DNA of 64,000 nt, taken from assembly GCF_024721585.1 (NCBI RefSeq), contig NZ_CP102629.1:744001-808000 (forward strand), written 5' to 3'. The translations under genes were made by a program, and so were the position numbers. The stretch is from Sphingomicrobium aestuariivivum (GTDB lineage: Bacteria > Pseudomonadota > Alphaproteobacteria > Sphingomonadales > Sphingomonadaceae). This document shows, in pieces, positions 2-5,664 of this stretch (position 1 is its first letter; each line of letters begins with the position of its first letter). The notes beneath the pieces are model-generated. The model did not search any database. It had not been told where the DNA came from and was given only the letters and a program-made list of their open reading frames with translations.

Positions 2-478
2 ATGCTCGGACGACCAGATGATGCCAAGTTGCTGAGGATGCTGCACGGTGCCGCCGAGGACACCGGCGATCGCATCCGCATGGTCTGTGACCGCATCACC
101 AACCAGCAGATCGTCAAGATCCTCCAGGACTGCTGTTCCAACCGTGACGAGATGATCCCGCTGGTCAAGGCGGCGCTCGACGAGCTCCACGCCCCGCTCG
201 AGGACAGCGAGCGCCGCATCTGCTGCCCCGCCAGCTGGTTCGACCTGTCGGACAGCGCGACCGAGACGGGCAATTACGGCCCCCTCCTCCTCAAGCTCGC
301 CGACTGCGACGAGATCGTGAAGGGGCGCCTCGAGGAGGCCAGCGAGACCGCCGACCTGTCGGCCAGCACCCGCCTCGCCATCGACGAGGCCATCATCCTG
401 CTCGACGAGACGGTCAAGAAATTCCGCCGCATCGTCGAACAGTCCGACGGCAAGGCCAAGGACGAGGCCGCGGCCTAG
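2..478 (+). CDS. Unrecognised helical protein (possibly 5'-partial)
   Basis: The frame is open from the first bases, so the ATG at 2 could be the true start or an internal methionine of a gene beginning before the window. The 158 predicted residues are almost entirely helix-forming, with a Cys-Cys pair near residues 44-45 and another near 74-75, and a Lys/Glu-rich end. The overall look is a four-helix-bundle protein, but I do not recognise the family and assign no function. Its TAG stop interlocks with the stop of the convergent gene in a shared CTAG. Confidence 0.6.
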   Translation: MLGRPDDAKLLRMLHGAAEDTGDRIRMVCDRITNQQIVKILQDCCSNRDEMIPLVKAALDELHAPLEDSERRICCPASWFDLSDSATETGNYGPLLLKLADCDEIVKGRLEEASETADLSASTRLAIDEAIILLDETVKKFRRIVEQSDGKAKDEAAA

Positions 479-1290
479 TCGATCAGGCCTGCCGCCCGAC
501 CGACGGGCACGACCGCGAACAGCTCCAGCGCATTGTCGCCCGCGGCCCCGTCGGGAACGCGAAGCCGCCTGCCGGTCACGCAGACCTGCTCGCCCTCCGG
601 CGTCTCGAAGCACTCGTGCATCTCTGTCAGGACCTTCGACAGATGGAGCACATCGCTCGCCGCCCTGCCGACGCGGTCGTGCCAGCGCAGGACCTGTTCG
701 CGGTCGCCCCATAGCGAGCCGACGAGCCAGTCACCCTGCGAATAAAGCGGATGGTCGACGATCTGCATGCCGATCATCAGCGCATGCTGCTCCTGTTCGC
801 GGTCACATGGCTGCGGTGCTGCGTCACCGGGTGCCAGTTGTCCGCACCGGCGCAACGCCCCCTTGGCGGTAAAGCCGAACAGTAGCGGCGTCGGGATCGT
901 CCGCGCCGCTTCGACTGGAAAGGCGTCCACGGGAGGCCGGCTGATCCGCCACTCCACCGTCGGCGTCACATAGATGCCCGAGGTCGGCTGCCCCGCCTCG
1001 TCGAGCGCCGGCTCGAAGCGGGCCCGCGCGCGCAACACGGTGCAGGTCGCCCGGTCGAGATGCTCCGAGCCCGAACTCTCGGCGATCTTGCACTGGGTCA
1101 CCCGGCCGTCGGGACCGACGTGCAGCCGCGCGCGCACCCCGCCCTGTTCCTGGTGCCGGAGCGCCATGCTCGGATAGTCTTCGGACGTGAACAGCCCGCG
1201 GATATCGCCCCGCGGTGCGACCTCGACCGGCTGGCCCGCGGTGGCGGACGCATAGAGGAGGCCGCCCAGCAGCCCCGATGCGATCATCAT
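475..1290 (-). CDS. Periplasmic TonB C-terminal-domain protein
   Basis: The protein has 271 residues. The ATG at 1290 is chosen because AGGGGGA lies just upstream and a signal peptide (MMIASGLLGGLLYAS) follows directly. Residues about 40-115 match the TonB C-terminal fold: YPSMAL, GGV, then DGRV, SSGSEHLD and RARFEPAL. Classical TonB has an N-terminal membrane anchor and a Pro-rich linker; neither is present, so this is probably a secreted TonB-like protein and not the energy transducer. The last 150 residues are not recognised. The stop overlaps the convergent gene at CTAG. It lies downstream of the terminator of the candidate RNA and so probably has its own promoter. Confidence 0.75.
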   Translation of the reverse strand: MMIASGLLGGLLYASATAGQPVEVAPRGDIRGLFTSEDYPSMALRHQEQGGVRARLHVGPDGRVTQCKIAESSGSEHLDRATCTVLRARARFEPALDEAGQPTSGIYVTPTVEWRISRPPVDAFPVEAARTIPTPLLFGFTAKGALRRCGQLAPGDAAPQPCDREQEQHALMIGMQIVDHPLYSQGDWLVGSLWGDREQVLRWHDRVGRAASDVLHLSKVLTEMHECFETPEGEQVCVTGRRLRVPDGAAGDNALELFAVVPVGRAAGLID

Positions 1291-1441
1291 GAAATCCCCC
1301 TTCCCCCGAGCAGGGCGGAGACAAGCAAATGGAGGAAGAGACGGCAAGCCCCGGCCTGGCCCGAACCCGCCTCATCGTCGCGTTAGCGGACAGCGCATCG
1401 ATCATCGACGGCGGCGCCCCCGACCCGCCCGACACCCGCGC

Positions 1442-1990
1442 AAAGAAAAAGGGACCAGCGCCGAAACGCTGGTCCCCTTCTTGGCTCCGGGTCGGTTTGC
1501 CGGTCTTGGCCCGGGTTCGCTTCACGTCCGCCCGAAGGCTTCTGTTCGGCGCCCATCGCCATCCTTGCGCACCCACTCAGGCGTCGCTCGTTTCCACCCG
1601 GCCTGCTCCCATGAGGAGCTTCGCCTCGGGTCCGGCGCCTTGCCTGTTGAGAGCTCTCACTCACGACAGGCTCCGTGCCTTTCCCTCACCGACCGACCCG
1701 TCAAGCGGATCGCGTCCCGGTGGTTCGTCGCGGCCCTTCCTGGACCGGGACCTTCGCGCCCTTCGCTCCCCCGATCCGAAGATCGGTGCAGCGCGGCTGC
1801 GTTAGGCACCCCGGTGCTTCCGGTGCCGTCCGACCGGCTGGTCTGGTCCCCAAGGGTCCGGATCTCGACACGCTGTCCGGATCCGAAGATCCTTTGGCGC
1901 TCCTTCCGGTCTTGCGACCCTCGCCTGCCGGCGGAGATCGGAACTTCCGTTTCCTTGCCCCGAAGGGCCCGGGCGGTTCGTCCCGATCAC
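1442..1990 (-). ncRNA. Candidate long structured non-coding RNA (~550 nt)
   Basis: This 1-kb gene gap holds no convincing reading frame but has clear RNA structure on the minus strand. Visible in order are GCCC-UUCG-GGGC, GGUC-GCAA-GACC, GGAUC-UUCG-GAUCC, a GGCACC/GGUGCC stem, CCGAUC-UUCG-GAUCGG, a GCCUGU/ACAGGC stem, GCUCC-UCAU-GGGAGC inside ACCCG/CGGGU, and GCC-UUCG-GGC. It ends in a 10-bp GC-rich hairpin followed by TTTTT. A promoter-like TTGGAA-17-CATATT sits just upstream. Conserved blocks of RNase P RNA, tmRNA, 6S and SRP RNA were looked for and not recognised. Ends are inferred from the promoter and terminator. Confidence 0.6.
1446..1476 (-). terminator. Rho-independent terminator of the candidate ncRNA
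   Basis: A perfect 10-bp stem (GGGACCAGCG/CGCTGGTCCC, six-base loop) is followed on the minus strand by five Ts and then CTTTG. It closes the structured region and separates it from the TonB-like gene downstream. Confidence 0.8.
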
Positions 1991-2056: not shown

Positions 2057-2281
2057 CGGGGATATCGCGCATAACTCGCGAATTTCGCGGGCACGACCCC
2101 AGTCCAGCCGCGCCTCTAGCCAGCACAAAGCCGATTCGCAAGCCCGATTCCGCCCGCCCGACTCGAAAACGACTCACCAACTGCATCTTCGAGTCGCCTC
2201 CCCGACTCCCCGACCACCGACCGGGTTGCCCAAATGTTCTCCCCGCCCTACCTGTCAGGCGTGACCGAATCTTCGCCCCCC

Positions 2282-4615
2282 ATGCCCGCCGACACGCCAG
2301 CCTATCTCGCGCACCTCAACCCCGCGCAGTACGAGGCCGCGACCACCCTCGACGGCCCCGTCCTCATCCTCGCGGGCGCGGGCACGGGCAAGACCGCCAC
2401 GCTGACCGCGCGCCTCGCCCACCTCATCGCCACCCGCCGCGCCTGGCCGAGCCAGATCCTCGCCGTCACCTTCACCAACAAGGCCGCGCGCGAGATGAAG
2501 GAGCGCGTGGCCAAGATCACCGGCGGCGCGGTCGACAACATGCCCTGGCTCGGCACTTTTCACTCGGTCTGCGCGCGCATGCTCCGCCGCCACGCCGAGC
2601 TCGTCGGCCTCCAGCCCAACTTCACCATCATCGACACCGACGACCAGCTCCGCCTGTTGAAGCAACTCGTCGAGGCCGCGCAGATCGACCCCAAGCGCTG
2701 GCCGCCCCGCGCCCTCGCCGGCCTCATCGACCAATGGAAGAACAAGGGCCTCACCCCCGCCCACATCGACGCCGCCGATGCGCAAGCCTATGCCGACGGC
2801 AAGGGCGCCGACCTCTACGCGCAATATCAGGAGCGGCTCAAAGCGGTGAACGCCTGCGACTTCGGCGACCTCCTCCTTCACATGCTCACCATCTTCAAGG
2901 CGCACCCCGACGTCCTCGACCAGTGGCGCGAGCGCTTCCGCTACCTGATGGTCGACGAATATCAGGACACCAACGCCAGCCAGTATGAATGGCTGAAGAT
3001 GCTCGCCTCCCCCGACAACAACATCGCCTGCGTCGGCGACGACGACCAGAGCATCTACAGCTGGCGCGGCGCCGATGTGTCCAACATCCTCCGCTTCGAG
3101 CGCGATTTCCCCGGCGCCAAGATCGTCCGCCTCGAACAGAATTACCGCTCCACCGGCCACATCCTCGCCGCCGCCAGCGGAGTGATCGCCCACAACAGCG
3201 GCCGCCTCGGCAAGGAGCTGTGGACCGACGCCGGCATGGGCCAGAAAGTGAAAGTGCTCGGCGTCTGGGACGGCCCCGAGGAAGCCCGCCGCATCGCCGA
3301 AGAGATTGAAAACCACGTCTCCAAGGGCGGCAGCCTCGATGATTGCGCCATCCTCGTGCGTGCCTCGCACCAGACCCGCGAGTTCGAAGAGCGTTTCATC
3401 GCCATCGGCATGGATTACCAGATCATCGGCGGCTTCCGCTTCTACGAGCGCGCCGAGATCCGCGACGCCATCGCCTACCTCCGCCTCTTGGCCTCCCCGC
3501 AGGACGACCTCGCCTTCGACCGCATCATCAACACCCCCAAGCGCGGCCTCGGCGACAAGGCGGTCGCCACCATCCACCAATATGCGAGATCGCAGGGCCT
3601 CCCGCTCCTTATGGCCGCCGCGCAGATCCTCGACACCGACGAACTCACCCCCCGCGCCCGCAATTCGCTCGGCCGCTTCGTCGGCGACTTCGCCCGCTGG
3701 CGGACACTGATGTCCGGATCGATCGCCACCCCCGTCATCGGCGACGACAACCGCCAGCTCATGGAAAGCGGCACCAAAGCCCTCACTCCGTCCGAGCTGA
3801 TGCAGCAGGTGATCGAGGAGTCAGGCTATGTCGCCATGCTCCAGGCCGACAAGTCCGCCGAGGCCCAGGGCCGCCTCGACAACCTCGCCGAACTCGCCCG
3901 CGCGATGGAGGAATATGAGACCCTCTCGGACTTCCTCGAACATGTCAGCCTCGTCATGGACAATGACGCCAACAAGGCGGGAGAGCGCGTCACCCTCATG
4001 ACCATCCACGCCGCCAAGGGCTTGGAATTCCCCTTGGTCTTCCTCGCCGGCTGGGAAGAAGGCCTCTTCCCTTCACAGCGCGCGCTGGACGAAGGCGGCA
4101 ATGCCAGCCTCGAGGAAGAGCGCCGCCTCGCCTATGTCGCCATCACCCGCGCGCGCCGACAGGCGATGATCGTCCACGCCGCCAACCGCCGCATCTACGG
4201 CCAGTGGACGAGCAGCATCCCCAGCCGCTTCGTCGACGAACTCCCCGCCGAACATGTGGAAAGCGACCAGACCATGTCGGGCGGCGCCTCGCTCTGGCAG
4301 GCCCAGTTCCAGCCCCACGAAGACCCCTTCGCCCACCTCGCCGCCGCGGGCTCCAACCGCGCCAGCACCCGAGGCCCCGGCTGGAAACGCGCCAGCTCCC
4401 GCTTCGAAAAAGGCGAACAACGCATCATCGAAAGCCGCGGCAGCGCGGTGAGCCTAGGCAACAAGGGCCGCGACGACCTGACCGTCGGCATGCGCGTCTT
4501 TCACGGCAAGTTCGGCTACGGAAAGATCGAAGCGATCGAAGGCAACAAGCTCGAGATCGAGTTCGAGAAAGCAGGACGGAAACGGGTATTGGATAGCTTT
4601 GTGAGTTTGGACTGA
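2282..4615 (+). CDS. pcrA: UvrD/PcrA-type superfamily 1 DNA helicase
   Basis: An ATP-dependent 3'-5' DNA helicase for repair and replication-fork maintenance. The 777 residues carry Walker A AGAGTGKT (31-38), AVTFTNKAA (61-69), GTFHSVC, Walker B DEYQDT (225-230), GDDDQSIYSWRGA (252-264), QNYRST, and VTLMTIHAAKGLEFP in the last third, with a basic Tudor-like tail. ATG 2282 is preferred because family members begin shortly before the LNPAQ motif; an in-frame GTG at 2261 and an ATG at 2234 are alternatives. The final ~15 codons use AT-rich synonyms unlike the rest of the gene, suggesting a recombination junction near the stop. Confidence 0.92.
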   Translation: MPADTPAYLAHLNPAQYEAATTLDGPVLILAGAGTGKTATLTARLAHLIATRRAWPSQILAVTFTNKAAREMKERVAKITGGAVDNMPWLGTFHSVCARMLRRHAELVGLQPNFTIIDTDDQLRLLKQLVEAAQIDPKRWPPRALAGLIDQWKNKGLTPAHIDAADAQAYADGKGADLYAQYQERLKAVNACDFGDLLLHMLTIFKAHPDVLDQWRERFRYLMVDEYQDTNASQYEWLKMLASPDNNIACVGDDDQSIYSWRGADVSNILRFERDFPGAKIVRLEQNYRSTGHILAAASGVIAHNSGRLGKELWTDAGMGQKVKVLGVWDGPEEARRIAEEIENHVSKGGSLDDCAILVRASHQTREFEERFIAIGMDYQIIGGFRFYERAEIRDAIAYLRLLASPQDDLAFDRIINTPKRGLGDKAVATIHQYARSQGLPLLMAAAQILDTDELTPRARNSLGRFVGDFARWRTLMSGSIATPVIGDDNRQLMESGTKALTPSELMQQVIEESGYVAMLQADKSAEAQGRLDNLAELARAMEEYETLSDFLEHVSLVMDNDANKAGERVTLMTIHAAKGLEFPLVFLAGWEEGLFPSQRALDEGGNASLEEERRLAYVAITRARRQAMIVHAANRRIYGQWTSSIPSRFVDELPAEHVESDQTMSGGASLWQAQFQPHEDPFAHLAAAGSNRASTRGPGWKRASSRFEKGEQRIIESRGSAVSLGNKGRDDLTVGMRVFHGKFGYGKIEAIEGNKLEIEFEKAGRKRVLDSFVSLD

Positions 4616-4620
4616 AATAT

Positions 4621-5664
4621 ATGAGTGACAATGAACTAAGGTCATGCACCTGTAAGAGCTACATTCTCCCCAGATATCATATCGACAGCGAAGAATTCTT
4701 AGCGCTTCGCGAATGGGCTTTATCCCGAATTGATGGAATGGTTCTGTCGTGCTGGAATTTCGACCCCGAATTTCTCTGCGAAACTATCACATTGAACGTG
4801 AAAGACATTGACCCTGAAGAATTAGACTTTCTCAAGATTAGAACGTTTGCCGCAGGCTTAGACAATTGTATTGTCATAGAAGCCACCGCTAGCGAACCTA
4901 CGTTTTCCGCGAGCGACCTTCCTAAAATCCAATATCCTGATGGAAGCGAGATAGAAGATGAAAAACTGCTCTCAATGCTTGAGGATTCCTTGTGCGATCA
5001 AGTCACGAAATTGATCGATGGCTGTTTCGGCATTTGGAACATTGCCTTTGGCGGTGCTCTAAATACCATCAAAACCTTTGCTGAGTGTGGAGAACAGCAT
5101 TCAGAGTCAAATGGATGTGACTCATGCATACCGTGGGCTGTGAACGATGACAATCTTATCGACATCAGTAGGATACCTAAAACGCATCCAGAAAAGGTTT
5201 TGGAGTGGTCATTAAAATGTAAGGGCTATTGGTACGGAAAGGGAGAGACGAACGTCGAGAAGTCGGTTTGCCTTCTTTCGAGAATCTTTAAGGTATCAAA
5301 CAAACACGACTCTTACCCAACGCTTCTGTGGACGATAGCGTCCTTGGAGGCTTTATATTGTGACAGTTCTAGTGCCATTGCTTATCAAATACGTCGCCGG
5401 GCACCTCTTTTATCAGCGGAGATAAGGGGGCATGATATGAATAAACTAATCAATAAAGGGTACGGATTTCGGTCACGTATTTTCCATGGGGATATACGAA
5501 TGGAGAGCATTTTCGCCGAAAGAGACGATTGCCCTGATGACCACCACACCCTCAAATCGTCAGATCATACCGACGCATTTTTAGCCGTGGCAGTTTCATC
5601 AATCGCATGCTGCATTTCTAATGATTGGCACGAGGTAACCTTCGAGGAACGATTGGTAATTTGA
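4621..5664 (+). CDS. HEPN-domain protein (Apea-like), AT-rich acquired gene
   Basis: A 347-residue protein whose base and codon use are much more AT-rich than all neighbours. The C-terminal third resembles the Apea-like HEPN fold: a helix around LWTIASLEALY (236-246), a basic helix QIRRRAPLL (256-264), and RSRIFHG (284-290), which fits the R-X4-H signature of HEPN ribonucleases. The N-terminal two thirds, with several Cys (including CDSC at 166-169), are not recognised. HEPN proteins are often RNases of toxin or phage-defence systems; that role here is inference. It starts 5 bases after pcrA and its TGA overlaps the TTG of the next gene, so it is probably co-transcribed. No partner antitoxin is apparent. 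Confidence 0.75.
   Translation: MSDNELRSCTCKSYILPRYHIDSEEFLALREWALSRIDGMVLSCWNFDPEFLCETITLNVKDIDPEELDFLKIRTFAAGLDNCIVIEATASEPTFSASDLPKIQYPDGSEIEDEKLLSMLEDSLCDQVTKLIDGCFGIWNIAFGGALNTIKTFAECGEQHSESNGCDSCIPWAVNDDNLIDISRIPKTHPEKVLEWSLKCKGYWYGKGETNVEKSVCLLSRIFKVSNKHDSYPTLLWTIASLEALYCDSSSAIAYQIRRRAPLLSAEIRGHDMNKLINKGYGFRSRIFHGDIRMESIFAERDDCPDDHHTLKSSDHTDAFLAVAVSSIACCISNDWHEVTFEERLVI

Follow-up and report, generated by a model that had tools for sequence, protein, structure and literature searches.

Large structured RNAs are few in bacteria. GOLLD and ROOL are large, ornate non-coding RNAs (ncRNAs) of hundreds of nucleotides, and the sponges CsrB and RsmZ show fast sequence turnover and a GGA-containing motif, the loop ANGGA, that is repeated between hairpins. 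In Caulobacter, the cell cycle ncRNA CcnA has been reported to act on the ctrA and gcrA mRNAs; that report places ccnA beside hemE at the replication origin and describes it as CtrA-controlled, and its putative homologs are not alignable together without too many gaps (PMC8959179).

Here we analyze a locus in a 64-kb window of DNA (744 to 808 kb of a 2.346-Mb single-contig genome). The window is the whole stretch analyzed, and positions are those of the window unless the genome is named. Beyond a preliminary description of this DNA, the analysis adds relatives in many genera, a promoter with a DnaA box and usually GANTC, and an interior that changes faster than the ends.

RESULTS

The locus and its transcription unit

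The minus strand from position 1990 to position 1445 almost certainly encodes a structured ncRNA of ~545 nt, counted from a predicted start, placed by the -10 element, to the end of the terminator. In minus-strand order, DnaA-type 9-mers (2074-2048) are followed by -35 and -10 elements with GATTC (2025-1997), by the ~545 nt of the RNA and by the terminator. The divergent neighbor encodes a UvrD/PcrA-type helicase (2234-4615, plus strand; Pfam PF00580 and PF13361), and the downstream neighbor encodes a TonB C-terminal domain (475-1347, minus strand; PF03544). A 347-amino-acid frame without a Pfam match adjoins the helicase gene (4621-5664, plus strand).

The preliminary description had named a TTGGAA-17-CATATT promoter and a strong terminator, and both are present on the minus strand: TTGGAA at 2025-2020 and CATATT at 2002-1997, with a spacer of 17, and a 14-bp stem with a U-rich tract after it at about 1479-1445. 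A strict promoter/terminator scan of positions 1000 to 2500 found neither element, the promoter being missed because its match is 8/12 compared with a required 9. The same description had seen no credible frame in the stretch, which agrees with a longest ATG frame of 40 amino acids on the RNA strand, under the shuffled mean of 65; a coding gene was rejected because the frame is shorter than in shuffles. Plus-strand mechanical open reading frames of up to 437 amino acids run across the region, and the sense frame exceeds the shuffled mean in 4 of 10 RNAs tested (L059, L076, L106, and L134). The minus-strand fold beats 100 shuffles (z, -5.1), and the plus-strand fold likewise beats shuffles (z, -4.2). 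Since both strands fold better than shuffles, folding energy cannot settle the strand, which is fixed by the tetraloops described below.

Conserved domains and covariation

Three domains were delimited on the minus strand. The 5' domain, GUGAUCGGG...CCGAUCUCCGCCGGCAGGCGA (1990-1905), is kept within the genus. The core (1827-1730), defined by alignment of relatives, consists of GGCACCGGAAG, a covarying helix that pairs ACCGGGGU (1815-1808) with GUCCCGGU (1751-1744), and then CCAGGAAGGGCCGC. The 3' domain (1585-1480), likewise defined by alignment, opens with GACGCCUGAG and closes onto the pre-terminator sequence, where the window RNA has CCCGGAGCC, differing from the common GCUCGGCGC. The intrinsic terminator (1479-1445) follows, its stem covarying over 30 sequences.

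The core alignment holds 31 sequences, in which loci of further genera were added by requiring three short anchors (GGCGCCGGAAG, CCAAGAAGGGCC, and GACGCC(T)GA). Because these anchors picked the aligned loci, their invariance and that of their outer stem are by construction; the outer core stem given by RNAalifold (GGC.CC with GGGCC) is invariant and neutral as evidence. The helix flanked by the first and second anchors lies outside the selection criteria, and its arms vary widely yet pair. Over the 31 sequences, 96.1% of cells are paired and 55 cells are changed on both sides, each value reached by 0 of 500 shuffles; weaker measures were reached by 10 of 500 (double-change pairs) and 14 of 500 (further pair types). 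Slid controls pair at 29 to 58%, the best slid version at 57.7%. In a swap test with 28 distinct pairs, own arms scored 15.46 compared with 10.61 for swapped arms (standard deviation, 0.58; z, 8.4), and the maximum of 1,000 swaps, 12.79, stayed below the own-arm score.

Over 30 sequences of the 3' domain with its terminator (L003 being excluded owing to an insertion), 95.2% of cells are paired and 11 pairs show double changes, with 0 of 500 shuffles reaching the observed values on all five measures; seven of these 11 pairs sit in the terminator, and the test leans towards structure because the outer helix was placed from one relative. For the long-range 3' helix, which is mostly invariant, the swap test showed no covariation (z, 1.1), and the two pairs deepest in the helix mostly fail or are gapped. 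The alignments thus show that at least one internal helix covaries. The check for covarying stems in relatives that the preliminary description had proposed accordingly turned up compensatory changes in the core helix and in the 3' domain with terminator.

High G+C content and the folding of both strands would also suit hairpins that arose by chance in intergenic DNA rich in G+C, with no RNA gene at all. Conservation, covariation, tetraloops on one strand and the meeting of promoter and 3'-end models in order speak against such a chance origin; the covariation refutes it unless the alignments are wrong, and we give it hardly any credence.

Two local features of the alignments can be noted. In the 3' domain of locus L003 (genome G002), ~180 extra bases with several CCUUCGGG strings lie between GACGCC and the terminator, as if the RNA had grown by hairpin addition. 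In core alignment A3 (columns 30 to 40 and 127 to 139), an internal loop with GGAAG facing AAGAA lies between two helices. It is possibly a tertiary or protein-binding motif, and its invariance is partly an artifact because anchors were used to pick loci.

Tetraloop hairpins and CGGAA repeats

The preliminary description had counted at least five hairpins with UUCG or GCAA loops on one strand. The count stands: with stems of at least 4 bp, the window RNA has five tetraloop hairpins, three UUCG and two GNRA. As for their being beyond chance in this RNA alone, that holds clearly for the UUCG loops only (3 versus a mean of 0.02 and a maximum of 1 in 50 shuffles), because shuffles reach five GNRA hairpins (2 versus a mean of 0.48). 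The wider idea of a concentration of stable tetraloops is upheld by 41 non-redundant RNAs (G, 35.8%; U, 13.7%), in which both types are enriched on the sense strand: 47 UUCG hairpins versus 0.6 in shuffles and 1 antisense, and 140 GNRA hairpins versus 22.5 and 11, respectively.

By the score used, CGGAA is the most over-represented 5-mer in these RNAs, with 147 copies versus 60.9 in shuffles and presence in 40 of the 41. CGGAAG forms a tetraloop in the minimum-free-energy fold in 7 of 82 copies, and its unpaired probability of 0.64 is a slight excess over the value of about 0.5 from composition. Since CGGAAG is so seldom a tetraloop, the CGGAA linkers may be repeated sites for a protein.

Comparison with described RNA families

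When the window was searched with 4,227 Rfam families, two tRNAs elsewhere reached the gathering score, with no family doing so in the RNA stretch, and 12 related loci (52,190 bases) gave 0 matches at that score; this was the Rfam/Infernal check suggested earlier. The best weak match by E value is BjrC68 (RF02353, a small RNA of Bradyrhizobiaceae) at the terminator end, with 19.5 bits (E = 0.024). It differs in that the match has half of the gathering score of 39 and is confined to the terminator and flank, and BjrC68 is 82 nt long. HOTTIP_3 and ctRNA_p42d follow at E values of 0.05 to 0.06.

The size of the RNA and two short look-alike strings, AACAGAA and GGAAGUUCCG, could point to a housekeeping RNA in diverged form (RNase P, tmRNA, 6S, or SRP RNA). 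The preliminary description had failed to recognize the cores of these four, and indeed none of the four families matches in the RNA stretch up to an E value of 10. The only RNase P match (RF00010) in the genome is elsewhere, at genome positions 371563-371940 (282.9 bits). Together with the Rfam result at gathering score, this makes a housekeeping origin very improbable, and RNase P and the other Rfam families were rejected as identities. Among the open-access papers that literature searches listed, no title or abstract opening describes this RNA, and an earlier description may exist in other papers. The earlier suggestion of an undescribed sphingomonad ncRNA class is supported by the covariation in relatives together with the lack of an Rfam match at gathering score, and on these sequence comparisons we class the RNA as a new family, unrelated to any described one.

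A promoter region with a DnaA box and GANTC

Upstream of the RNA, three abutting 9-mers, TTATGCGCG, ATATCCCCG, and TTATCCACA, occupy positions 2074-2048 of the minus strand. The third (2056-2048) is an exact DnaA-box sequence and presumably is bound by DnaA. A GANTC site, GATTC (2011-2007), lies between the -35 and -10 elements of the promoter (2025-1997).

These elements were compared in 35 loci, all found without a promoter search; the loci are related, so the box and GANTC counts are not independent events. In the 130 nt upstream, 31 of 35 loci carry exact TTATNCACA or its complement, compared with 0.1% of 4,953 background windows, as do 27 of 31 once L076, L077, L081, and L086, which were kept partly because a box was visible, are removed; the exact box is absent in 4 of the 35. 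Of the 35 loci, 25 have GANTC at the promoter (24 of 31 without the four box-selected loci) and 10 lack it. A background of 3.6% is too low a yardstick for these GANTC counts because promoter anchors were hand-set, the hand-set loci being those without GANTC. In a measurement without anchors, 23 of 31 box-bearing loci have GANTC 5 to 60 nt downstream of the nearest box (background, 6.6%), as do 22 of 27 without the four box-selected loci (background, 6.4%).

GcrA is encoded in the window's genome (126.7 bits, in a search whose control also matches, oddly, in Sulfolobus). GcrA acts at methylated GANTC promoters, in agreement with PMC5988900. Both marks of a GcrA/CcrM-type promoter, GANTC at the promoter and an encoded GcrA, are thus found here, and we infer that transcription of the RNA responds to DnaA and to GcrA/CcrM methylation.

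A 9-bp TATCC repeat occurs in 20 of the 35 loci (background, 0), and boxes in both orientations occur in 5. Abutting 9-mers with a strong box, seen in those 20 loci, and the boxes in both orientations could also mean that the locus matters as DNA, serving to titrate DnaA or to control replication, with the RNA as a by-product. Selection at the level of RNA is needed to account for the compensatory changes within the transcript and for its tetraloops on one strand, and genus g96 (L180 to L182) keeps the RNA layout without an exact box. We regard the DNA-site explanation as quite improbable.

DnaA boxes near GANTC sites were also seen upstream of hemE (L131 and L163) and of a ppsR-like gene (L117 and L123), the genes being read by eye; these sites are perhaps the replication origin region, and no RNA-like terminator follows the L163 promoter match. 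The RNA lies at 745.4 to 746.0 kb and hemE at 1,500 kb of the 2,346-kb genome. A location of the RNA in the hemE origin region was rejected because the two are about 754 kb apart, with hemE as the origin mark assumed from Caulobacter. A relaxed -35/GANTC pattern with two mismatches, run over 246 genomes of the order, was by eye no better than its reversed control.

Distribution among sphingomonads

A DNA search of 61 genomes (the window's own and 60 relatives, 37 in the window's genus) matched 16 genomes, all among those 37. All 16 loci yield RNAs of 415 to 728 nt with conserved blocks in the same order; 14 of them form the same-genus alignment, the ends of the other two having been missed by the pattern.

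Two models were run separately on the same 199 genomes of the family, and 150 listed matches of each were compared. R1, a model of the 3' domain, was built from 15 same-genus sequences; R2, a sequence-only promoter model, was built from 26 aligned loci, 11 of which were first found by a promoter pattern. Among the matches listed, at least 37 pairs in at least 34 genomes have both models on one strand, with R2 upstream of R1 by 60 to 1,200 bases. Controls among the same matches gave 5 pairs on the opposite strand, each overlapping a sense match, and 2 on the other side, both in a genome with tandem copies. The 34 genomes span 23 of 96 genera sampled, as counted by hand, and 20 of them (14 genera) gave no training sequence to either model; these 20 were told apart by handle, and same-species overlap with named R2 contigs is possible. 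R1 matches occur in at least 119 genomes among the matches listed, many without an R2 partner. The tallies of 129 of 199 genomes for R1, in which many matches span the terminator alone, and of 155 of 199 for R2 at an E value of ≤1 are not counts of the RNA.

A terminator pattern revealed the RNA layout in further genera, with g45, g66, g96, and g108 among its 23 matching genomes, some of which are chance matches; the extent of the family obtained from the models and this pattern is a lower bound. Among named genomes, a promoter pattern had 33 matches, 19 of them in sphingomonads or unplaced alphaproteobacterial metagenome-assembled genomes (MAGs), including Sphingosinicella soli, S. microcystinivorans, Sphingomonas vulcanisoli, S. 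cremea, S. edaphi, and a Sphingomicrobium MAG. None of the remaining 14 matches, 13 from outside the group and one at hemE of Sphingopyxis witflariensis, was followed by the terminator. A 16-base 5'-domain pattern was too short to discriminate in G+C-rich genomes.

Forty-eight of 53 loci were delimited, with each span starting 26 nt past the promoter anchor and ending at the terminator, and gave RNAs of 302 to 727 nt, with the RNA starts of L006, L086, L107, and L132 set by hand; the other five have no perfect-stem terminator. Compact members include L060 (321 nt) and L015 (415 nt). From 40 fetched regions, 11 were kept on account of visible motifs, 6 others have the same layout and lie outside the counts of 35 loci and 48 RNAs, and 23 more were left out.

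Outside the family, R2 matched 11 of 80 same-order genomes at an E value of ≤0.01, all but one at ≥9.5e-4. The exception, G050 (locus L243, family f2), has two R2 matches (best E value, 2.1e-7). The L243 promoter, outside Sphingomonadaceae, carries a DnaA box and GCGACTCG, and the contig ends about 170 bases on. Locus L068 (genome G227) holds two strongly diverged tandem copies of the RNA on the minus strand, each with its own promoter and terminator. In genome G245, facing promoter matches 2.8 kb apart on contig C1, at 1041850 (plus strand) and 1044690 (minus strand), each have a 3'-model match downstream, and G245 would therefore appear to be a second genome with two copies.

Conserved ends, variable interior and changing neighbors

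With the ends removed, the interiors of the 41 RNAs show BLAST similarity in 146 of 820 pairs, which link them into 14 groups. In their last 75 nt, 476 of 820 pairs are similar, and the RNAs form one group of 40 plus one. By eye, the clades have in common the promoter, the strings GACGCC...GGCGC, a terminator of the AGUGGG type and the style of the hairpins. Because the interior turns over while delimiters and hairpin style stay, an ordinary sequence search misses most family members. This suggests a general route for finding such RNAs, in which separate promoter and terminator models are both required, in order.

In the window's genus, the RNA is divergent to uvrD and the upstream region is common to both, as would be expected of a cis-acting element of a neighboring gene, such as a regulator of uvrD. 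UvrD motifs adjoin 4 of 4 same-genus loci compared with none of the 6 loci examined from other genera. In other clades the RNA adjoins argG (three loci), nadA, phzF (two), a thiolase or M19 peptidase gene (two), or a gene for an RsmB-type methyltransferase, and one genome has tandem copies (L068). The uvrD cis-element was rejected because contexts vary between clades, and we consider a cis-acting role very unlikely. Of 20 flanking frames scanned, eight had no match to any Pfam family.

DISCUSSION

The explanation that we favor, with slightly better than even confidence, is that the locus is a standalone gene for a large structured, trans-acting ncRNA under DnaA/GcrA-type cell cycle control that would act as a protein scaffold or sponge. 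What the DNA demonstrates is an upstream region of its own with a DnaA box and usually GANTC, a unit bounded by a terminator, no conserved frame seen, tetraloop hairpins, an internal helix (at least one) that covaries and neighbors that vary by clade. The promoter of its own, the independence from neighbors and a structure kept without constancy of sequence argue for an RNA that acts in trans. In the proposed mechanism, DnaA and GcrA/CcrM methylation would control transcription, so that the RNA would be made within a window of time after replication starts, and the RNA would then serve as a protein-binding scaffold or sponge. That action, taken by itself, is a guess: it is the likeliest one, at somewhat less than an even chance, because interior sequence and length vary freely while hairpin caps and the repeated CGGAA linker persist, a pattern easier to reconcile with protein binding than with catalysis or a single fixed antisense target.

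This raises the rather doubtful possibility that sphingomonads share a widespread, perhaps near-universal RNA of 300 to 730 nt, switched on by DnaA and methylated GANTC once per replication round and identified by its promoter, terminator and hairpins more than by the sequence of its interior, which would couple replication state to a protein through its CGGAA linkers as a scaffold or sponge. If the reading of the promoter is true, sphingomonads have a large RNA timed by the cell cycle.

In size and ornateness the RNA is like GOLLD, ROOL and OLE, yet no Rfam model reached its gathering score here. It is like OLE in being non-coding, ornate and hundreds of nucleotides long, and unlike OLE, whose sequence is described as extensively conserved, in that mainly its ends are conserved between genera. 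It is like CsrB and RsmZ in its fast turnover and in a GGA-containing motif repeated between hairpins, and unlike them in that the repeated motif is CGGAA and not the loop ANGGA. CsrA (PF02599) had 0 matches in the window's own genome, with control matches in Escherichia coli, Bacillus subtilis, and Thermotoga maritima, and a CsrA sponge was rejected because CsrA was not detected in the genome.

An unlikely alternative to protein binding, though one to be weighed above the other rivals, is a base-pairing cell cycle regulatory RNA like CcnA, in which an exposed loop would free or block ribosome-binding sites of target mRNAs. Its promoter elements would belong to the same regulatory circuit, and CcnA itself reportedly acts on ctrA and gcrA mRNAs and has putative homologs that resist alignment (PMC8959179). 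Weighing against base pairing are the lengths of 302 to 727 nt with many capped hairpins and the distance of about 754 kb from hemE, compared with ccnA at the origin; besides the loose CGGAA, an unsystematic look saw no short unpaired stretch common to clades. As a candidate protein-binding scaffold or sponge, the present RNA would be like CcnA in being an alphaproteobacterial ncRNA of the inferred DnaA/GcrA/CtrA/CcrM circuit with putative homologs that are hard to align. Unlike the base-pairing CcnA as that report presents it, the RNA is long, its promoter region carries a DnaA box and in most loci GANTC, and its distance from hemE is about a third of the chromosome rather than a shared place at the origin.
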